Positions 5,084 to 26,550 of a DNA stretch of 33,915 nucleotides are shown one piece after another (the stretch's first letter is position 1; the number at the start of each line of letters is the position of its first letter). The stretch is from Chloroflexota bacterium (GTDB taxonomy: Bacteria > Chloroflexota > Dehalococcoidia > Lucifugimonadales > UBA3495). The notes under the pieces were generated by a model. The model was not told the origin of the DNA and did no database searches. It saw nothing but the letters and a program-made list of their open reading frames with translations. Location: the NCBI GenBank assembly GCA_028875055.1, contig JAPPGG010000061.1, positions 1 through 33,915 of the forward strand. The letters are read 5' to 3'. The position numbers and the translations under genes are program-made.

Positions 5084-6664
5084 TTAACGTGGTGGGCCGG
5101 ACTGGACAAAATCGAGAACTGATGCCGATTCCCGCGTCACACCATCCTGCGGCATGGGGATAGTATAGGTCAGCGTCGCCTCGTCGTCCACGATCTCGAT
5201 TCCCTTCACGAAGTTGCGGATCAGCGCCTTCCGCTCCGGGAACGTCCCTTCCATCAGAAACTCCCGGAAGTCTGCCACGTACCCCTTGATCTCCCTGGAC
5301 GTGGGCACGTCCGCCCGCCGCCGCTCCAACTGGTCCTCGGCCTCCTCCCGCGCCGCCACCAACTGGTCCTGCCGCGCCTTCAATGACAGGATGCGGGGCG
5401 ACAGCGCCTCGATGGGCAACTGCCTGGTCTCAAGGGCCTGGTAGAGGTTCTCCAACCGGGTCTCCACGTCGGCAAGCTCGGCGTCGATGGCCTTCAGCCG
5501 GCCATTCACCTCACCGGCCAGGGCGTCAATCTCCTCAGCTACCAGGGTCACCAACTCGGTGATGGTCTCCTCGGTGAGAATGCGCTTCCGCACCTTCTCG
5601 ATGATGTAGTCCTCCACCCGCTCGGCGTTCAGGTAGCGGCCCGTGCAGCTTCCCGAGCCCTCCCTGAGCAGGCTGGCGCAGACGTAGTAGGCGAACTTGC
5701 CGCTCTTGGCCGCCTGGCCGGAGTAGGGCTTGCCGCAAACCCCGCAGCGGAGAAGACCACTCAGAAGGTACTGGCTGCCCACCCGCGCGGGCCTCTGCTG
5801 CGCCGGCGCCCGCTCGTGCATCCCGTTCTGCACCGCGTCGAAGGTCTCACGGGACACCAGGGCGGGCCAGGCGTTCTCGACCCTTACCGGATCACCCGCC
5901 TTGTCGTCCTTGCTCTTCACACCCCAAACCGCCGTTCCGGTGTAGGCTTCGTTGGTCAGCATGTTGTGTACCGTGCTCTTCTGCCACCGCTTGCCCCGGA
6001 TGGTGATGCCCCGGCCGTTCAACTCCTTGCAGATTTCCTTCAAGCCGTTGCCCCGGCGGGAACTCTCGAAGATTTCCTGTACGATGGGCGCGGCGTCCGG
6101 GTCGATCTCCAGGGTGGGCCGGTCCTTCACCCCGTCGCTGACCTTGATGCGGTTGTAGCCGAAGGGAGCGCGGGAGGCCAGGAAGTAGCCTCTTGACGCC
6201 GCTTCCCGCATTCCCCGCACAACCTCCTGGGCCAGATTCTCGCTGTAGAACTCGTCCACGCTCTCAATGATGGCTTCCATCAGCTTGCCGGTGGGTGAGT
6301 CGTCGGCGTGCTCGGTGATGGAGACCACGCGGATGCCCTTGCGCCTGAGCATGGACTTGAAGGCCACGGCGTGCTCCCGTTTTCTGGTAAAGCGCGAGAA
6401 CTTCCAGACCAAGATCACCTGGAAGGGAGCGGTGGCCTTGCCGCCCTCTTCAATCATCTTCCTGAACTGGGGCCGGTCGGCGATGCGTCCGCTCTCGGCC
6501 TCGTCGATGTACTCCCGGGCGATGGCGTAGCCGTTCTTCTCGGCGTAGTCCCTGAGCGCCCGCATTTGGGCGGCCACGGACAGGTCCACGTCCTGGCGGT
6601 CGCTGGAGACCCGGGCGTAGAGGGCCGCCGGGGTGAGGGATTGGAACTGCTGCTTTTTCGTCAT
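5084..6664 (-). CDS. large serine recombinase (site-specific integrase)
   Basis: A 526-aa large serine recombinase. The N-terminal resolvase domain (about 13-155) starts 'ALYARVSSDRQ', with catalytic Ser20, and contains 'WKFSRFTRKREH'. The 'Recombinase' domain ('APFGYNRI' to 'NMLTNEAYTGTAVWG', about 165-250) follows. A zinc ribbon uses Cys307, Cys310, Cys329 and Cys340, and a long coiled coil (about 375-470) would mediate synapsis and directionality. All parts look intact. Such enzymes integrate or excise phages, ICEs and islands between short non-identical att sites. The promoter side faces a more AT-rich accessory segment beginning at 6.7 kb. GGAAG upstream of ATG 6664 supports the start. 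No recombination directionality factor was recognised nearby. Confidence 0.94.
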   Translation of the reverse strand: MTKKQQFQSLTPAALYARVSSDRQDVDLSVAAQMRALRDYAEKNGYAIAREYIDEAESGRIADRPQFRKMIEEGGKATAPFQVILVWKFSRFTRKREHAVAFKSMLRRKGIRVVSITEHADDSPTGKLMEAIIESVDEFYSENLAQEVVRGMREAASRGYFLASRAPFGYNRIKVSDGVKDRPTLEIDPDAAPIVQEIFESSRRGNGLKEICKELNGRGITIRGKRWQKSTVHNMLTNEAYTGTAVWGVKSKDDKAGDPVRVENAWPALVSRETFDAVQNGMHERAPAQQRPARVGSQYLLSGLLRCGVCGKPYSGQAAKSGKFAYYVCASLLREGSGSCTGRYLNAERVEDYIIEKVRKRILTEETITELVTLVAEEIDALAGEVNGRLKAIDAELADVETRLENLYQALETRQLPIEALSPRILSLKARQDQLVAAREEAEDQLERRRADVPTSREIKGYVADFREFLMEGTFPERKALIRNFVKGIEIVDDEATLTYTIPMPQDGVTRESASVLDFVQSGPPR

Positions 6665-16582: not shown

Positions 16583-19500
16583 CTAGGGACGGGAAGGCAG
16601 CACTACCTGGTAACAGACCACGCCCAAATCATCTTCTGTAATTGGCTCAGGAGCTTTTGGAAACTCGACGACGCGCAAGCCAAACTGCGCGACGACATCT
16701 ATGATTCTACGGGCGCAGTCGGCCACGCTCATCCCACTGTCTTCGTATTCCCGTCGCAGTTCGGACAACTGACGCCTGACCAGGTTGTTCCGGCCAACCG
16801 AAAGGGCTTGGTCTCCTTCGTCGTATTCATCCCCGGGCGGAGCGTCCGGCGAGCGTAATACGTCTAACGCCCACCGCTGGCTGGCAGGAAGGGAAGCAAA
16901 CCTGGTTTCAGGGTCCAGCAGCGCATTATGTTCCCGGCAGATGTCGTCGGCTGCAACCGCAAACAGATGCTCCAGGTCGATACCAGTAGGGATGGGTATA
17001 CCGGGGTGTTGCTGGGGATCTATCAGCCGGAGCATGGGCAGGTCATCCCGGTGCAGAATTTCACCCGACTGGGACACCATACGCCAATGGCGCTCATCCC
17101 TGCGGGTCCGGCAGGCAAAGAACACCGCAGGCTCCGCCAGTGTCGGGGACCTCTGTACGAAAGCGGCCCCGATGCCCCAGGGCAGGCTCCGAAGCCGGTC
17201 TACTTCCCCTTCCTCTGCGGCGCGCCGCAGATAGGATCGGAACAGTTCACCCGCAAATGCTGAGCCACTTTCCCCACTGCTCTCCTGCTCGTCCAGCAGG
17301 GTCGTGTCTCCACTGGCAAGACGTTCCACAAAGGTGTTCAAGTCCGCGTACACCTGGGACTCGGTTTCCACGTCGGCCAATACCGGCGTTTCCATGCCTA
17401 CCGAGGCGTTGGCCGCCATAATCTTGGCTTGGAGCTTAGCCTCCAACCTTAGCAGGCGGTCCAGATCGCCCTGCTCGGGCAGCAGGGTGTAGAGGTACGC
17501 CGTGTCATGGGGGCTGCGCAGGCGGATGATGCGGCCATTGCGCTGCACCACGCGCTGAGGGTTCCAGGGCATATCAAAAGAGAGCACGGCTTGGGCTTGT
17601 TGCAGGTTTTGCCCCTCGGAGAGGATGTCAGTGCTGATGATAACGTCCACCTCGCCGTTTTCGGGCACAAAGCTGGGATCGTCCGTCACCGACTCCGGGC
17701 AGAACCGTTCAAGTTCCCTGGTACGGGCGTCGGCGCTGGTTTCGGAACCAATTACCACCGTCCAACTGCGGTTTCCCAACACTTCCGGCTGGTCCTCGAT
17801 TTGCTCCTTGAGATAGGCCGCCGTGTCCTGGAAGGCGGTAAAGACAGCGACCTTCTGCGACGGCGTTGCCGACATCACCTCTTTGAGCGTATCCAGCTTG
17901 GGGTCGGGGCCGTCAGTCAAGTTCGACAACTGCGTAGACATGGCTGCCAGAGCATCCCGGTCTTTCTGCAGGTCGATCAAGAACTGGTCGTTGAACTTGT
18001 CGGCGGAAATCCCGCCCTCCGAGTCGGCCAATGCCTCGTCAATCAGGTCGGTACTGAAGAAAGTGTCGTCTTCGCTGGCATCTCCAACCAGGTCCCTGAT
18101 GACCTCCGGCGGCGGCACTACTCCCCGCTCAGCTATGGCACGGAGTATCACGTTGTTGCCGTCCCGCATCCTGCTCACGGTTTGCAGCGCCGCATACCAG
18201 GACGACTCGAAGCGTTTCAGCAATTGGGACTGTATCAAACCGGCCAGCGCTTCCTCCGACGCCGATTCTTCTTGCTTGTCTACCCTATAGGCCGATAGAC
18301 GATAACGCGCCATTGTCAGCCCGTCTATCCCGTCGTAAATGGACTGCACGATGCCGGGGTGCGCACTGTCCAGATCGTAGCGGCGCTCATGCAACTCCGG
18401 CTCTGGAAACCTCACCGGTGTCCCATCGATAAATCGCTCGTTCCGGTAACGGTCCTTGATAAAGGCCCGGTCCCTTCGTACTGTCAGAGCGTCGATCAGA
18501 GGGAAGAGCTTTGCCTCGGAAAGGTTTTCGGTCCTGGATGCTCCGGCGTCGGCGAAGAACTTCCGCAGGCTGGAAATCCTCAATGGTTCTCCGCTAAAGG
18601 CACTGTCGTGGCGTCCGAAGAGCAAGAAGAGGTTGTGCAGGTCCCACAGGGAGTTGTTGACTGGTGTGGCAGTCAACAGCAGTAGCTTCTTGGACGTTCC
18701 ACCCATGAGCCGGTCTAGGGCCGCGTACCAGGTGTTATCGACGTTGCGGTAGGCGTGGGCTTCGTCGATGATGACAAATCGGTACACGTCCTTGTTTACC
18801 GGTAACACCCTGCGGTCGCCACGGGGAGACAATTGCCGGTCCTGGGCCAACTGCTGGTAGGAGACTACGGTCCCCGGCAGATTCTCTTCAGCCAAACGCT
18901 GCTGCCAGAGACGGTCCCGGAGTTGGGCCGGGGAAATGACCAGTATGTGCTGTCCCAAGTCCCGGGTGTGCTCCCGAATAAACTGGACACCTATCTCGGT
19001 CTTGCCCATGCCCACGCCGTCGGCGTAAAGGACTCCGCCGTGTTCGTCGAGTATTCGCTTGGCCCGCGCCAAGCCATCCCGCTGGAACGAGGTTAGGGTA
19101 TGCAGCTCGGGGAGGTCAGCCCCATCATCGTCCAAGTCACTCTCGTAGAGTTCCAGCAACGCCCGCAGGAACACGGTTTGCGGATCGCTCTCAAGCGAAG
19201 GAGGCCGCAGCAGTTCCAGCAACTCTTCCCGGAAGTCCAGGGCGTCATCCCACAAGCGCTGATACCAGTCCAACGCCATCGCCACCACGTTGGGCTGGTA
19301 GTGAACCATGCCCAGTTCCCGGTTGGACACCAAACCGCCGAAGGTGAGGTTGGCCGAAGAAACTAGGGCCGCGCCGGTCCCGGTGGTCCTGCCGTCGAAC
19401 TCGCCGAAGATGTACGCCTTTCCGTGCAGAAAGCCCCTTGCGTACCGCCTCACCTCCACGTTCCCGGCATCGATAAAACCTGTAACCCGCTCCAGGACAG

Positions 19501-19840
19501 CCCGGCGGGCGGCGGGGAAAGCGGAAAAGTCCCGCTGACGGCCCAGCGCAATCACCGATTGTTCAAACCGCCCGGTTACAGTCTCACCTACCGGGCCGGT
19601 CAAGCTCTCGGAAAGGGGAGTTGCCCCGATAAGCAATCTACCTCCCCCGACCCGGTTGCTTACTATCTTCGCCAGCGCGTCCAGTCCTTCCAGGCTGACA
19701 TATCCGGTAGCGACATTGAGAGGATCGACATAGGTGTTCGCCAGCCACTCCAGCGCCTGTTCGTGAGACCCGAAGACGTCGTTATCGACCAGCTCGTAAG
19801 AACTGCCGAGGGGAGTAAATCGGGGATGGCGTGCAGTCAT
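16583..19840 (-). CDS. PLD-nuclease/SNF2-type helicase fusion (defence)
   Basis: A 1085-aa protein. The N-terminal phospholipase-D-like domain (about 20-205) has 'HGKAYIF' (His139, Lys141) and 'SSANLTFGG' (Ser161, Ser162, Asn164), the nuclease signature seen in BfiI/NgoAVII-type enzymes; the usual Asp at +5 after Lys is Gly146, so the motif is degenerate. A SF2/SNF2 helicase follows: Walker A 'DGVGMGKTEIG' (Lys280), 'DEAH' at 359-362, 'LLTATPVNN', then 'QRVVQRNGRIIRLRS' in the C-terminal RecA lobe. An accessory C-terminal region ends the chain. The start follows the methyltransferase stop by 1 nt with no clear Shine-Dalgarno, implying translational coupling. It probably translocates on DNA and cleaves it when the partner methylation mark is absent. 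It resembles DISARM DrmD plus DrmC fused, but DrmA/DrmB are absent. Confidence 0.85.
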   Translation of the reverse strand: MTARHPRFTPLGSSYELVDNDVFGSHEQALEWLANTYVDPLNVATGYVSLEGLDALAKIVSNRVGGGRLLIGATPLSESLTGPVGETVTGRFEQSVIALGRQRDFSAFPAARRAVLERVTGFIDAGNVEVRRYARGFLHGKAYIFGEFDGRTTGTGAALVSSANLTFGGLVSNRELGMVHYQPNVVAMALDWYQRLWDDALDFREELLELLRPPSLESDPQTVFLRALLELYESDLDDDGADLPELHTLTSFQRDGLARAKRILDEHGGVLYADGVGMGKTEIGVQFIREHTRDLGQHILVISPAQLRDRLWQQRLAEENLPGTVVSYQQLAQDRQLSPRGDRRVLPVNKDVYRFVIIDEAHAYRNVDNTWYAALDRLMGGTSKKLLLLTATPVNNSLWDLHNLFLLFGRHDSAFSGEPLRISSLRKFFADAGASRTENLSEAKLFPLIDALTVRRDRAFIKDRYRNERFIDGTPVRFPEPELHERRYDLDSAHPGIVQSIYDGIDGLTMARYRLSAYRVDKQEESASEEALAGLIQSQLLKRFESSWYAALQTVSRMRDGNNVILRAIAERGVVPPPEVIRDLVGDASEDDTFFSTDLIDEALADSEGGISADKFNDQFLIDLQKDRDALAAMSTQLSNLTDGPDPKLDTLKEVMSATPSQKVAVFTAFQDTAAYLKEQIEDQPEVLGNRSWTVVIGSETSADARTRELERFCPESVTDDPSFVPENGEVDVIISTDILSEGQNLQQAQAVLSFDMPWNPQRVVQRNGRIIRLRSPHDTAYLYTLLPEQGDLDRLLRLEAKLQAKIMAANASVGMETPVLADVETESQVYADLNTFVERLASGDTTLLDEQESSGESGSAFAGELFRSYLRRAAEEGEVDRLRSLPWGIGAAFVQRSPTLAEPAVFFACRTRRDERHWRMVSQSGEILHRDDLPMLRLIDPQQHPGIPIPTGIDLEHLFAVAADDICREHNALLDPETRFASLPASQRWALDVLRSPDAPPGDEYDEGDQALSVGRNNLVRRQLSELRREYEDSGMSVADCARRIIDVVAQFGLRVVEFPKAPEPITEDDLGVVCYQVVLPSRP

Positions 19841-19841
19841 A

Positions 19842-22800
19842 TTACAATCGCTCGAACCATTCCAGGACTTTCTCCCGGTAGGCAGGAGTTACAGCATTCT
19901 CGGTGAAGTCAGTAAATATGAAACGCAGTTCGTCCTCGGTCAGCCCATAGGCATGGGCCACCAGTGCGTCAATCTCCGCCCGTTTGTCGCTGCGCTCGGC
20001 GTCGGTCAGAGGCCCGCATTCCACGCCTGACTCCGCCGCAAAGTCGGCAAACCGCTGGTCCACGCAGGACAGCCGCGCCGCCAATGCTCCGATTCGCTGC
20101 CAGGGAGTGTTGCCCGGTTGTGGGAAGGTGAGCATGTCAAGGATAAAGTAGTTCAAGTTTGTTTCTACGTACCTTCGCGCTACCCAGTCAAAAGGAATGC
20201 TGTTCATTGCACCCAAGATACTTGCTTGAAAGAGAGACCCCCAGCCAGGAAACAAAAGGTATGGGGCTTTGTTCGTCAATGGCGTCCGTGGAGGAACTAG
20301 GCATGTGATCACCGTCCGGGAGTTAGTCCTGTTAGTCACATCGCGAAACGCAATACGGCAGTGGTTCATTGGGTGGGAGCTGGGGTCGGCAAGGACTTCG
20401 GCAGAAAATAGCCGCTTGAAGACGGGAGAGCGCTTGCGCCTGTTGTGGACATAGGCAAGAACCTCGTCCCATTTCGCATAACCAGCAGGCTCATTACCAT
20501 GAGGTTCGTACTGGTCAAAGGACCGACCCTTCCACACTGGCAAACCCCTGGAATGAGAGAAAAGGGCGCGCTGCTGTGTCTCATCTAGCTCCCTATACGG
20601 AATTGCATGAGACACAGCAGCGCGCCCTTTTGAAATTTTTTGATTTTCAGGGTTTCGAAGCGAATCAAACTGTACGCCGCCACGCAACCTCGCCAACACA
20701 TCAGCGTGCATCTGGCTTGGCAACAGTGGAACTACTCGGGCGCCTCCCAAGGAGGGCGCCTGAATACTTACGCCCTGACTGCGTGCCGCATGATGGAACT
20801 CTTTGAGATTTGCGGAAGGCCCCGTCACTTGGAAGGCGGCTTGTTCAGTCGGTACCTTGCGCTGACCGGTCATTAGAGCAATCGTGTATTGAGGATGAAT
20901 GGTAAAGGCCCAGCCCCTGTTGTTGAGAAGGAGGTCAAGGCGTCGCAGACTGTTGTGGGCAAACAGCCACTCCCTGAACCCCTTGGCGCCTTGTGCCAAG
21001 AATGCAGAACGAGGCAACACTACGCCCAGCCGTCCATCCTGCCTGACGAGATGGCTGTATCGCTCGCAAAAGAGTTGGCACAAGTCTCTGTCTCCCACAC
21101 CTTGAAGCTGGTATCCTCCGCTCACTGAGAAAAATCCCCGGACGACAGATAACTGCTGTTGCTGGGCCTCAAATTCCCCTCGCCATTCAGGGTTCTGTTT
21201 GTCGAGTTGTGCAATGCGCTTTCTTCTATCGGCCAGATTGGGCAATCCACGCAGACCTGGCTCACGCAGTGCGTAAAAGGCCAGTTCCTCGATGGTTATT
21301 TCGTTCCACGGCGGGTTGCCCACAACCACGTCGAATCCTGCACGTTCCCGGTGAAAAACGTTGGGAAACTCTAGGGGCCAGTGGAAAAAGCGGTACTGGT
21401 TGGCGATACGCGATGCCTCATCCCTTGCATCCATAACTTCGGCATCCAGTTCTTTGCCTGCTTCAACGATGGAATCGGCGTGGGTCTCCAACGTATGCCG
21501 GGCACCGTCCAATCCCAAAGGCTCCGCTGTCCACAGGTCAAAGGCTGAGCTCAGTCCGGCGGTGGCTTCCTCCCGACGGGAACCCAATTCCTCGGAGCGT
21601 TTGACCTCCTCCGGGGTACGGTCTGGGATGGCCGCCTGCTCCCGTTGCAACTTCGCAGCTTGCTCCATCGCATTACGCACGTTCTGGCCGGTGAACATGG
21701 GGCTGTCGCTGGCGCCGACGACGGACGGGTCGGCCACGCCAATGAGGGCATCACCACACTTGAGATTGCTGCCTAAGTAGGAGAGGGCCAGGCCGGGAAC
21801 GAAGGATGCCAGCCACAGCGTAACGTTGGCGACTTCCACCGCCATCGGGGAAAGGTCCACGCCGTAGATGCAGCGTTTCAGGATCAACCTTCGTAGCAGG
21901 TCGCCGTCCTCCGGTTGTTGTGAAATCGCTCCGTTGTCCTGGCTCAACTCGCTGAGCTGTTGGGCGATTCCGGGCAAGCCGCCAACCTCAGCCAGGAAAA
22001 TCTCAATGCGGTCGGCCATCATGTCCAGGGCCGCCGTCAGGAAGTGGGCACTGCCCATCGCCGGGTCCACCACCGAAAAATCAAAGATCCTCTGTGCGGC
22101 TTCAGTGGGGTTCCGGTCCGCCGATTTCCTGACTTCGGCCAAGTGGTCGTCAAGGGCGGGCAACAGAGAATGGTTGAGCAAGTGGTCTACGAATTCGTGG
22201 CGAGTGTAGAACACACCTCCCGCCTTCCGCCCACCGGCCTCGGCTTGGTAATAGAGCTGCGCTTTGGTTACTTCCGGTTGCTCCCCGGCACGGACAGGCC
22301 GGAACACATCGCCCCTAGCGTCGTAGGCCAAGTCTTCAGGAGCACGGGTTAGCCGCAAGGTCAGCAAGGCTTCATAGATGGCTCCCAAGTGGCCGATTTG
22401 CAGGCCGGCATAGTCCAACCCTGGAGCATCGGCCTTATCGGTTTCATAGGCGATGGACACCAGGGCGGGGGCCAGGTAAACGTCGGCAATCTCGGCCCGT
22501 TCCAGCACGGCGCTTCCAGGGAAGCCGTCGGCGGCGAACAGGCTGCCGTTGTAGGCGGGGACGCCGGCGGAGCGGTCCCCGGTGCGGACCATCCGCACGA
22601 GAGTCCGCAAGCGGTCCCACCGTTGGGTGGCTTTTCGGCTGAGAGAAGACCCGGCGAGGCGGGAATCCTCGGACAGTTGACGGGCGCTGTGGGGCCGGTA
22701 AGCCGCCGAGCCGATAGGGAGGTAGCCTCGTGCTTCGGTGTGAAGCAGGAACATAAAGCGGAACACTAAGGTCAGCGCAGCCTCTTCAATCTGCCGAAGT

Positions 22801-23851: not shown

Positions 23852-24484
23852 CTAACGCAACCGACGGCGTTTAATCGCTTCTACTTCGTCCAAGTGGCAT
23901 CTCTTGTATTTTAACCCACTCCCGCATGGGCAGGGCCGGTTTCTGCCGGGTTTGTTTCCGACAAGTTGGAGAATCTCGTCCTGGTACTCAATCTCGCCGG
24001 CAACTCCGTGAGGATACTCTCCCCACAGGTCATCCTTGGCCGCGGTCAAACCATAGCGGTCGGTGTAAGCCAGCCGGTAAAAGAAGGGGACCACCAGTTC
24101 TAGTATGAATCGTTGCAGGGTCAGATCCTTTTCAGGGGCGTATTTCAGGCTCAGGCAGCAAGCTCCGTCCTCGAAAAAATGGAGGTCCACCATGGCGCAT
24201 TGGTTCTGTTCCGCAATGTCGAAGCGCCGTCCGCCGGCCTCATAGACCGTGGGCCACCCGTTGTTTCCCAGGCGGCCCAACTCGATCCTGACTTTGAACT
24301 CATCGCACAGAAAAGTGCCCATGGCCCGATGCTCGCCGGTGTCTCCCAGTTCCAGTTGGCCCGAGCTCCGGTCGAACGCAGCGCAGAGGCGGAGTTCTCC
24401 ATCAATCCGCTGGTCCGCCGGCGCATAAGCCAATTCGGGAAAGTTGGACGCCAGCCATTCCAGGTCAGTGTCTCGCGGGTTCAT
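23852..24484 (-). CDS. stand-alone E2-like CBASS protein with C-terminal SEC-C motif
   Basis: A 210-aa protein whose start overlaps the cyclase stop by 4 nt (ATGA). Residues about 60-160 fit an E2-conjugase-like core: 'FKVRIELGRLGNNGWPTVYEAGGR', then 'DLHFFEDGACCLSL' with His102 and Cys109/Cys110, matching the H..x..G.xCL active-site pattern, then 'LQRFILELVVPFFYRLAYTDRYG' and 'WGEYPHG'. The C-terminus 'NRPCPCGSGLKYKRCH' (Cys185, Cys187, Cys196, His197) is a SEC-C zinc motif. Short type II CBASS operons carry an E2 without E1 or JAB protease; there the E2 acts on the cyclase. No Cap2 E1 domain or Cap3 is present here. The E2 assignment rests on motif and context, SEC-C on a clear motif. Confidence 0.75.
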   Translation of the reverse strand: MNPRDTDLEWLASNFPELAYAPADQRIDGELRLCAAFDRSSGQLELGDTGEHRAMGTFLCDEFKVRIELGRLGNNGWPTVYEAGGRRFDIAEQNQCAMVDLHFFEDGACCLSLKYAPEKDLTLQRFILELVVPFFYRLAYTDRYGLTAAKDDLWGEYPHGVAGEIEYQDEILQLVGNKPGRNRPCPCGSGLKYKRCHLDEVEAIKRRRLR

Positions 24485-25440
24485 CTGGCGTAAGGCTTCC
24501 TCGGCGTTACGGTCGCGGCGGCCATCGCGGCGGTCCCGGACGCTCCGTTGTTCTTGGACTTCGCCTTACCGAAGTCCTCGCCGAACAGCTTCTGCCATTT
24601 CTGGACGCTCTTCTGCGGGTCGGTTTCATCAAAGGCGTCGTTCACCTGGTCGTTGTAAATCTCGAACTTGTCCCGGAAATTCCGGTACTTGTTCTGGTCC
24701 CAATGCCGCGTGAAGGTTTCCTGGGGCAGTACGGGATTGCGGATTTCCGGCTGGTTGGGATTGGCCTGCAAGAAAGCGTTGATGCGGTTGCAGACGGTCT
24801 TCAACGTGTCGGGGACGGTCTTGAACTTGGCGTCGCCCTCGTTGTTCTGAACGCTCATCCCGATGAGGGTCGTGAGGAGGATCGAAGGGGCGGTGAAATT
24901 GCCCTTGTGGTCCCTCATGTACTTCAGCAACCGGGTAGCTCGCTTGAGATTGCCGTTGGTGATTCTCGTCTTGTCGTTGAACCAGTCCCGATAGCCGGTT
25001 CCGTCCGTGATCTCGAACTCGTCGGTCTTGTTGTTGCAGACGTAGCGTTGGCCGTTGATCTCGACGCAGGGAACGATGTCCAGGTGGAAGTCGCCGGCGT
25101 AATCGACCATTACGCACCGGGTCCGTCTGTGCACCATGTCCTTGTAGGTGCCGTGCTGCCGGAGGCAATTGTAGGCGTCGTTGATGTACTCGGCCGGTTT
25201 CTTGCCCTTCTGATACTTCATGAAGAGCAGGATGTCGGCGTCGTACTCCTTGTTTTCCTTTGGCTTGATGATCGTCCGCAGGGCGTAGGAACCCTGGCGT
25301 TCCACCTTCTCGAATGATTCCAGATGGCGGCTCAAGTGTGTTGTCACCGCCGCCACGTGGTCGTTCAGCTTGTCCAGCCGATTTTGGTTGATGTTCACGT
25401 GGTCGGCCAGGAATTCGTTGAAGTCTTCTACCCGCTTCAT
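24481..25440 (-). CDS. CD-NTase (CBASS cyclic-oligonucleotide synthase)
   Basis: A 319-aa nucleotidyltransferase of the cGAS/DncV-like family. The active site reads 'ERQGSYALRT' (Gly50-Ser51), then 'EYDADILLF' with Asp67 and Asp69, then 'FHLDIVPC' with Asp121, the three-carboxylate metal site. A helical C-terminal domain follows, then a flexible Ala/Gly/Lys tail ('KNNGASGTAAMAAATVTPRKPYAR'). On phage infection such enzymes make a cyclic di- or trinucleotide that activates the co-encoded effector. ATG 25440 has AAGGAGA 7-8 nt upstream and overlaps the phospholipase stop by 4 nt. The nucleotide product cannot be predicted from sequence alone. Confidence 0.92.
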   Translation of the reverse strand: MKRVEDFNEFLADHVNINQNRLDKLNDHVAAVTTHLSRHLESFEKVERQGSYALRTIIKPKENKEYDADILLFMKYQKGKKPAEYINDAYNCLRQHGTYKDMVHRRTRCVMVDYAGDFHLDIVPCVEINGQRYVCNNKTDEFEITDGTGYRDWFNDKTRITNGNLKRATRLLKYMRDHKGNFTAPSILLTTLIGMSVQNNEGDAKFKTVPDTLKTVCNRINAFLQANPNQPEIRNPVLPQETFTRHWDQNKYRNFRDKFEIYNDQVNDAFDETDPQKSVQKWQKLFGEDFGKAKSKNNGASGTAAMAAATVTPRKPYAR

Positions 25441-26417
25441 TCGGTGTGTCTCCTTATGTGGCTCAAGATGGCTTTGGATTGGTAGGTGAAATCCCTCTCG
25501 GCAAGGGCTTTGAGGTTGGTCAGGTGCTCGGTGTCGTCCAACTCCCAAGTGTCAATTTCGGGGTCCAGGCGGAAGTACCGGTCATTCAGGATCAGCTTCG
25601 CCATATTGGTCGAAGCCTGGGACTGAAGCCCCAACGTGTATGAGACCAGCTTATTGCCTCCCCACCCGGTTAACAGGCCCCAGGACCCCCTTTCTGCGTA
25701 CATGGTTGTCGTGTGTCCGGTGCCTATGGAAAATACCTTTACTTCCTCCACCCCCTTCTTGAATTTGGATACTGCCTCGGTCAACGCGATGATTGACGGA
25801 TTGTTGGCCCAGAGGCCGCCATCCGTCAGCAGATACGGTCCGACTGCTTTGGGATCGAAATAAGTCGGTGCCGCACAGGAAGCGAGAATTGCATCCCTGA
25901 GCGACACGTCCCCATCTCTTTCATAGGGTTCTCCCAGGTCCCCCAAATAGCGGGACTTGAAGACGTGGACCCCGCCCGTCGATATATCGGCGCTCGTTAT
26001 CATCAACGGAGTTGATATATCCCGAAGGACGGTTTGGGGCAGATATTCTTCCAGCACCCTTTCGAGGGGCGCCCTGGAATATCGGCTCCGCAAGAGCGCC
26101 GAGATCAGCGTAGGAAGTCGCGATTTCCTAAATATGTGCGGCGACTCCTTCTCGAACAAGCCGACCACTTCACCTAATGGAATTCCCGCCGCCGCGGCTC
26201 CTACGATGATGGACCCCGTGCTCGTCCCGGCCAGCAGGTCGAAGCATTCTCTGACCGGCTGCCCCAGAGCCTCCTCGGCCCTGGCGAGGATTTGGGCGGC
26301 GTAAATCCCTCTGGTGCCACCGCCATCCACCGCCAGGATGCTGAAGCTCCCCTCTGGGACCGTTGGTAGCCCTGCCCGGTCGAAGCTAGACACGACTGGC
26401 TCTCCGCTCGGCACCAT
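25437..26417 (-). CDS. capV: patatin-like phospholipase, CBASS effector
   Basis: A 326-aa patatin. 'VDGGGTRGIYA' (oxyanion loop, 31-37), 'GTSTGS' with nucleophile Ser66, and 'TDGGLWANNP' with Asp199 form the Ser-Asp dyad. In CBASS, CapV is switched on by the cyclic nucleotide and degrades membrane phospholipids, killing the infected cell. It is first in the minus-strand operon and overlaps the cyclase start by 4 nt. The start is uncertain: ATG 26417 has only a distant AGGAA, while GTG 26393 has GGAGAG 6 nt upstream, which would remove eight residues. The divergent neighbours (HTH plus metallopeptidase) share its promoter region. Confidence 0.92.
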   Translation of the reverse strand: MVPSGEPVVSSFDRAGLPTVPEGSFSILAVDGGGTRGIYAAQILARAEEALGQPVRECFDLLAGTSTGSIIVGAAAAGIPLGEVVGLFEKESPHIFRKSRLPTLISALLRSRYSRAPLERVLEEYLPQTVLRDISTPLMITSADISTGGVHVFKSRYLGDLGEPYERDGDVSLRDAILASCAAPTYFDPKAVGPYLLTDGGLWANNPSIIALTEAVSKFKKGVEEVKVFSIGTGHTTTMYAERGSWGLLTGWGGNKLVSYTLGLQSQASTNMAKLILNDRYFRLDPEIDTWELDDTEHLTNLKALAERDFTYQSKAILSHIRRHTE

Positions 26418-26471
26418 TGACCACGGCTTGGTTCCTGATTATCATCCAATCACCACGAGTGAAACAGAGTT

Positions 26472-26526
26472 TTGACAGAGTTACGTATAGGCTAACCCAA
26501 CTATTGTTACACTGTCTTGACAGTGT
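26472..26526. promoter_or_regulatory. divergent promoter region with perfect palindrome (candidate CapH operator)
   Basis: ACACTGTC-TT-GACAGTGT (26509-26526) is a perfect 8+8 dyad. A related half-site, TTGACAGAGTTAC, starts at 26472; TTGACAG is common to both and also matches a -35 box. The dyad lies 24 nt before the repressor gene start and about 92 nt before the phospholipase start, so one repressor dimer could control both directions. Confidence 0.6.
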
Positions 26527-26550
26527 TTCACTACCGGAACGGGAGGCGCT

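Follow-up and report, generated by a model that had tools for sequence, protein, structure and literature searches.

Why does a bacterial protein-coding gene carry a perfect inverted repeat, and what does the repeat do to the encoded enzyme? The locus that raises this question lies in the window, the whole stretch of 33,915 nucleotides analysed here (contig JAPPGG010000061.1 of a Chloroflexota bacterium). The genome assembly it belongs to amounts to 3.75 Mb in 75 contigs. Two questions follow. First, what keeps the two arms of the repeat complementary? Second, what becomes of the protein when the segment between the arms is turned around? The features concerned are collected in Table 1.

Table 1. 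Features of the methyltransferase hairpin and its surroundings (positions in the window).
Feature	Position	Strand	Remarks
Right (3') arm, coding strand	20560..20584	-	codes, together with the final base of the loop, for (D/H)-E-T-Q-Q-R-A-L-F (conserved motif H-x-T-x-x-x-x-x-F)
Invertible 22-nt loop	20585..20606	-	coding strand GCAATTCCGTATAGGGAGCTAG is the 'plus' form, R..D; its exact reverse complement, in L002 and L048, is the 'minus' form, T..H
Left (5') arm, coding strand	20607..20631	-	encodes K-G-R-A-A-V-S-H
A-rich tract directly before the left arm	20632..20646	-	9/15 A when read in the coding direction; the antisense strand is T-rich past the stem
R1078 codon (swapped pair, first residue)	20592..20594	-	T or A when inverted; coordinate computed from the ORF
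D1081 codon (swapped pair, second residue)	20583..20585	-	H when inverted; first base is the last loop base; coordinate computed from the ORF
Host gene: Type IIG/DrmMI-like adenine methyltransferase, 1327 aa	19842..23825	-	motif IV NPPW at residues 837-840
PLD + SNF2-type helicase gene, downstream	16583..19840	-	beside the methyltransferase in L027 and L028 too
CBASS-like genes, upstream: SEC-C/E2-like protein, SMODS nucleotide cyclase, patatin phospholipase	23852..26417	-	same order in L027; none found beside L028

The best profiles of the host protein are those of Type IIG restriction-methyltransferases and DrmMI. The match to profile PDLC03620 (1.2e-108) runs across residues 47-1310 and an Eco57I domain is present; the full-length profile match, the NPPW motif and a methyltransferase plus target-recognition domain (TRD) fold are all those of a Type IIG/DrmMI methyltransferase. 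The nearest named relative of the gene comes from an uncultured Dehalococcoidia bacterium.

The initial annotation had placed a 25/25 inverted repeat with a 22-nt loop inside this gene and had judged a chance origin in coding DNA very unlikely, and both statements were borne out. The arms pair at 25 of 25 positions (20560-20631), forming by far the longest short-range inverted repeat of the window (13 pairs of at least 16 nt are listed there) and its sole perfect stem of at least 13 bp with a loop of at most 150 nt. The coding-strand RNA folds at -62.3 kcal/mol (z -9.0), with none of 200 shuffled sequences being equally stable. When the same peptide was encoded by random synonymous codons, 25/25 pairing was reached in none of 20,000 draws (mean 12.2, maximum 21). 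Therefore, the palindrome is not forced by protein constraint.

Among first-subfamily relatives, 28 loci matched the gene and 26 of them cover the hairpin site. A perfect stem of 19-26 bp with a 22-nt loop is present in 13 of the 26, and 11 have no hairpin; L041 has a 24-bp stem with one inner mismatch, and L043 (2218-2315) has a 23-bp stem around a 52-nt loop, inside which 30 extra nucleotides (10 codons) keep the frame. With repeated sequences removed (L037/L028, L051/L029 and L052/L030), there are 14 distinct carriers of the 22-nt loop, namely the window and 13 homologues (L041 counted), which are 47-79% identical in the hairpin region and hold a 19-26 bp stem at the same codons. Across the 14 carriers, 332 of 336 stem cells are Watson-Crick pairs and 2 are G-U pairs, 18 of the 24 stem pairs have changed on both sides, and the pairing ends past pair 25; a register slid by 1-3 gives just 49-134 Watson-Crick cells. 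The arms, as this comparison indicates, drift in sequence, but in concert, so that the homogenisation of both arms expected of a template-switch (quasipalindrome) inverted repeat is found. Third positions are more conserved in the arms (10-18 of 18) than elsewhere in the C-terminal part (34-59%), which in our reading fits the codon phase, because no base falls on a third codon position in both arms. Of the 19 distinct members of the close family, four have no hairpin (L029, L030, L040 and L042). Most close relatives thus carry the palindrome, and the refuting condition first proposed, arms conserved purely by protein constraint in relatives without it, does not overturn the observation.

Could the hairpin be selected as a nucleic-acid structure for expression control, either in the mRNA or as an antisense intrinsic terminator, as had been suggested at first? 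The fold is very stable, and a T-rich tract follows the stem on the antisense strand, with 12 of 14 carriers having 7 or more T among its 15 nt. The A-rich coding tract before the left arm is enriched in carriers of both subfamilies (the second is described below): first-subfamily carriers have a mean of 8.1/15 A versus 3.0 in hairpin-less rows, and second-subfamily carriers have 10, 8 and 10 A versus a mean of 4.7 and a maximum of 10. Against this, G-U pairs are as scarce as stated above though RNA would permit them, the loop length of 11 or 22 nt and the inversion of the loop are left unexplained, and A-rich codons may merely encode a hydrophilic linker. As for the terminator-like flank originally noted, the T-rich stretch does follow the stem on the plus (antisense) strand, but the 22-nt loop exceeds those of ordinary terminators and a consensus scan, which covers loops of 3-8 nt only, reports no site there; an Rfam scan of the window gave no match. 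Selection for such a regulatory hairpin is improbable.

The most informative comparison is that with the nearest relative, L002. The 72-nt element of the window is identical to that of L002 at 72 of 72 positions on the opposite strand (DNA search), with the third positions elsewhere in the C-terminal part agreeing at 267 of 453. The initial annotation was therefore correct that PY(R/T)EL(D/H)ETQQRAL is encoded on both strands, the other strand of the window being, letter for letter, the coding sequence of its nearest relative. L004 and L047 hold the window loop letter for letter, and near-copies of one or the other orientation occur in L003, L005, L028, L038, L041, L049 and L050. On a tree of 22 proteins with the hairpin columns removed, the 12 sequences scored for loop orientation require at least 4 changes, and the 21 scored for the H/D state require at least 5. 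L036 and L039 were kept in the stem count and left out of the orientation count (12 rows). Their loops are apparent hybrids, with the outer part in one orientation and the centre in the other, perhaps from a smaller inner inversion. Each of the genome assemblies holds one orientation. Inversion in place, along with homogenisation, is evident from comparing the relatives, and templated quasi-palindrome correction, one of the explanations first proposed, is well supported by arms that homogenise in concert and a loop that inverts.

We consider it rather probable that this locus is a recombinase-free specificity switch, with template switching both maintaining identical arms and turning the loop around. 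The hairpin would be a self-maintaining one in coding DNA: the replicating polymerase would now and then switch template between the arms, and one arm would be copied onto the other, which would keep the complementarity perfect despite sequence drift. The same template switch could invert the loop in place. Such a flip would keep P-Y-x-E-L-x and exchange R1078/D1081 for T (or A)/H; the flipped pair would in turn probably change one base pair of the methylated sequence, and also of the attacked sequence if methylation is coupled to restriction. Comparison of the relatives supplies the two orientations, the concerted arms, the repeated flips, the R..D to T,A..H swap in two subfamilies and the covariation of the pair in hairpin-less proteins, and what we infer is that template switching is the agent, that DNA specificity is affected and that living populations switch. 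The enrichment of the A-rich/T-rich tract counts against this explanation, because template switching does not predict it; the tract might ease opening of the DNA, act as an antisense terminator or simply code for a hydrophilic linker.

Both halves of the proposed process have precedents. Arm homogenisation together with spacer inversion is given as the signature of template switching in coding inverted repeats of yeast (PMC8604942), and template switching is described as creating and maintaining hairpins in RNA genes (PMC8794818). The present hairpin shares with the yeast repeats homogenised arms, an inverted spacer, reversible flips and amino-acid changes; the yeast cases presented have spacer inversions of 2-5 bp, arms of about 10-16 bp and events between strains (PMC8604942), unlike the loops of 11 and 22 nt, the arms of 19-26 bp, the phylum-wide retention and the likely specificity pair of a defence enzyme that are found here. 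With the RNA hairpins it shares perfect stems, compensatory changes and loops inverted by one copying event, but that account concerns RNA genes rather than a protein-coding one, and the loop inversions it presents are rare, mostly 4 nt in rRNA and up to 7-8 nt at the longest (PMC8794818). A 22-nt inversion would be unusually long compared with the published spacer inversions. As in phase-variable Type I hsdS genes (PMC4948785, PMC11709252), DNA inversion alters the specificity region of a methyltransferase; the hsdS inversions reported take place between genes and are driven by the invertase PsrA (PMC11709252), whereas here 11-22 bp flip in place with no recombinase evident. A search of open-licence papers found no hairpin-loop switch in a methyltransferase.

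A programmed site-specific inversion by a recombinase, as in hsdS inversions or invertons, would also yield a segment seen in both orientations between inverted repeats of 20-26 bp, and the window does contain a large serine recombinase gene (5084-6664). In intragenic invertons, an inversion within a gene recodes the protein, as the methyltransferase loop flip does from inside its gene; the examples are longer and are thought to be recombinase-driven. Here, the arm sequences vary between species yet stay self-complementary, with no fixed shared sequence, and a scan of ORFs up to about 7 kb from the gene in L027 and L028 found no site-specific recombinase, the one related find being a DDE transposase. 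For these two reasons a site-specific recombinase is very unlikely. The spacing of 22 or 11 bp between the would-be recombination sites is, moreover, very short for synapsis.

A small inserted element had been suggested as well. Rickettsia palindromic elements are mobile palindromes that stand in frame, and a palindromic element of this sort would be in keeping with the first-subfamily linker that holds the left arm, which is about 11 residues longer than in the hairpin-less L042, L054 and L058 (alignment counted by eye). That much of the suggestion stands. No other genomic copy was found, the hairpin being a single locus in the window genome and in four matching relatives (DNA search) where a mobile element would be multi-copy; its codon position is identical in all carriers, and no length difference is visible in the second subfamily. 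Insertion of a mobile element hardly comes into consideration.

Hairpins of this kind are also scarce elsewhere in the carriers. In 400 kb each of G019, G016 and G044 there are 1, 4 and 1 stems of at least 18 bp with a loop of at least 8 nt; the methyltransferase hairpin is the only such stem in G019 and G044, and the other three in G016 lie outside long frames. Since there are so few such stems per 400 kb, the methyltransferase hairpin is not a general feature of these genomes. Among viral contigs, single-protein queries (the window enzyme and L012) found no relative, and an alignment query found 11 loci, with the hairpin in none of the 11. Among plasmids, 101 records matched, and the hairpin is in none of the 11 loci inspected (L120-L130).

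Many of the source genomes are metagenome-assembled, and in the G572 homologue the gene is split over two contigs (the end of L057 and the start of L053), the break falling exactly within the right arm; the loop that can be seen is in the plus (R..D) form. This contig break could be a trace of mixed orientations, or merely the effect of a hairpin that is hard to sequence. A sequencing or assembly artefact as the origin of the hairpin itself is refuted by its recurrence in independent species, including the single-contig assemblies G016, G044 and G426, with frames open on both sides; the chance left to it is minimal.

What, then, does the flip do to the protein? The plus loop encodes A-I-P-Y-R-E-L-D and the minus loop L-A-P-Y-T-E-L-H, and the frame is open both ways. 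Because of this, and because the loop is almost symmetric except for a few codons, P-Y-x-E-L-x is kept and the pair is swapped; between the window and L002, the residues P, Y, E and L are unchanged by the inversion. The swapped residues are three apart, R..D (PYRELD) versus T/A..H (PYTELH), and the 14 carriers are divided into seven with R..D and seven with T or A..H. As in a phase-variable switch, each form gives an intact but different protein.

Hairpin-less relatives hold the same motif as fixed alternatives, such as T-M-F-H-M-T-N-D-S, R-M-F-D-M-T-N-D-S and Q-G-L-F-N-M-T-S-D-S. In 41 of them, R stands with D in 16 of 16 cases, and with H or N in 2 of 25. The tree of hairpin-less relatives implies 15 or more changes of the R..D/T..H state; of its 11 independent contrasts, 10-11 agree with covariation of the pair and none disagrees (p about 0.001); three hairpin rows were excluded from this count, and L107 and L125 were scored T/H from the alignment. 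The hairpin is thus not needed for the pair to change, since relatives without it switch between R..D and T..H too. Judged by these alignments, the swapped pair behaves as a natural, coupled, specificity-like pair.

The predicted structure of residues 500-1327 (AlphaFold, pLDDT 83.8) matches the DNA complexes of CamA (Z 26.7), BrxX (Z 24.8) and MmeI (Z 20.9), on the strength of which the C-terminal part is assigned as the target-recognition domain; sequence searches against solved structures gave weak matches. The R1078/D1081 motif sits near the start of this predicted DNA-recognition domain, at its entry. In BrxX, K681 and D684 are reported to read base pair 2, Salmonella BrxX having A/S at those two positions and, as stated there, a different base pair; in MmeI, Y642 and K645 read base pair 2, and altering them alters the base (PMC4833311, PMC11842806, PMC11341690). 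Residues 681-688 of E. coli HS BrxX are K-G-L-D-T-N-G-S (sequence checked), and x-M-F-x-M-T-N-D-S-x-L-F fits, by eye, the PglX pattern x-G-L-x-T-G-D-N-x-x-F. The hhalign comparison with BrxX did not confirm the by-eye register, placing the region about 11 residues off and without local confidence; because the profile alignment left the residue register unfixed, the equivalence with BrxX K681/D684 is given as a motif match. The likeness to MmeI and BrxX/PglX lies in two residues, three positions apart and close to where the recognition domain starts, which in those enzymes decide base pair 2 and whose swaps change the recognized motif. Unlike the present case, the pair changes described in those enzymes are engineered or fixed between species, and the accounts cited describe no hairpin. 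With a pair so close to the target-recognition domain's entry, and coupled in the way of specificity residues, a flip probably changes one base pair of the methylated sequence.

A second subfamily offers another view of the same site. Its carriers are distant methyltransferases, 27-28% identical to the window protein, from three genomes that belong to the same family as the window; they have a hairpin of their own at this motif, the stems measuring 26, 20 and 22 bp (L068, L069 and L070, respectively) and the loop 11 nt. The loop of L069 is the exact reverse complement of that of L070 (11/11), so inversion in place is seen here as well as in the first subfamily. The motif reads A-L-A-H-M-T-N-D-S in two and R-Q-S-D-M-T-N-D-S in one, which is the same swap (ALAH/RQSD). 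In both subfamilies the right arm begins at base 2 of the H/D codon and ends at or near the F that comes next. The left arm has a different codon phase in each, from which we read a probable separate origin of the two hairpins. In a fourth genome, G046, the second-subfamily hairpin is present in decayed form. Among the 63 loci L068-L130, a perfect stem of at least 13 bp occurs in 10, comprising the 3 of the second subfamily, 5 first-subfamily members fetched again and 2 unrelated stems; second-subfamily members at about 50% identity and below have no hairpin in this set. Separately, second-subfamily genes in G042 (L076, L086 and L088) and G046 (L071 and L084) are broken or frame-shifted at the hairpin site, and look as if hairpin errors had destroyed them. 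In L095 (1232-1278), a repeat-like palindrome (ATTCCCGCGC...) is read in frame within the methyltransferase ORF of a relative.

All of the mutational evidence above would be the same if the hairpin were neutral, that is, a fold-back palindrome in a tolerant linker whose arms are equalised and whose loop is flipped by mutation bias, with the protein tolerating both forms and no switching being selected. The yeast study argues that such changes require no adaptive cause (PMC8604942), and part of the left arm (residues 1063-1069) is a low-confidence loop of the model (pLDDT <50). It is harder to see why neutral hairpins would arise in two subfamilies, differently phased, over the same motif and with the same residue swap, why the swapped residues would be a naturally covarying pair, and why repeats with long stems and wide loops would be rare elsewhere in these genomes. 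We regard a neutral hairpin as clearly less likely, though not remote.

If the template-switching explanation is carried to its functional end, the locus would be a recombinase-free contingency locus at the scale of codons. Selection would twice have placed a self-correcting hairpin, whose opening the A-rich flank may aid, over the entry motif of the recognition domain; ordinary replication errors would turn 11 or 22 bases around and so exchange the whole specificity pair in one step, and cells would alternate between two methylation or defence specificities. This fuller interpretation we put forward tentatively, at a little under an even chance. If it is true, one replication slip swaps two coupled DNA-recognition residues in a bacterium with no recombinase, which would join quasipalindrome mutagenesis and phase-variable restriction-modification, two fields usually kept apart. 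It would also be a natural case, in coding DNA, of loop inversions and compensatory stem changes far longer than those presented for yeast and RNA genes (PMC8604942, PMC8794818), and would provide a search rule for more switches in defence genes, namely short perfect hairpins over specificity motifs.

Several minor observations concern the neighbourhood of the gene. In L028 (7001-18002), the methyltransferase-helicase pair is flanked by housekeeping-like genes; no CBASS gene was found there, and the reading frame of the methyltransferase is broken into two ORFs. The serine recombinase of the window, with Resolvase, Recombinase and zinc-ribbon domains, lies 14 kb away and is possibly the integrase of the defence island. 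The cyclase ORF as listed (24481-26417, TTG start) shares 112 nt with the patatin gene; its start is probably mis-set, because L027 has an ATG start 36 residues further in. Just 5' of the patatin gene that opens the CBASS-like operon there is an imperfect inverted repeat (26458-26532; 27-nt arms, 74%, 21 nt apart), a possible operator or promoter region.
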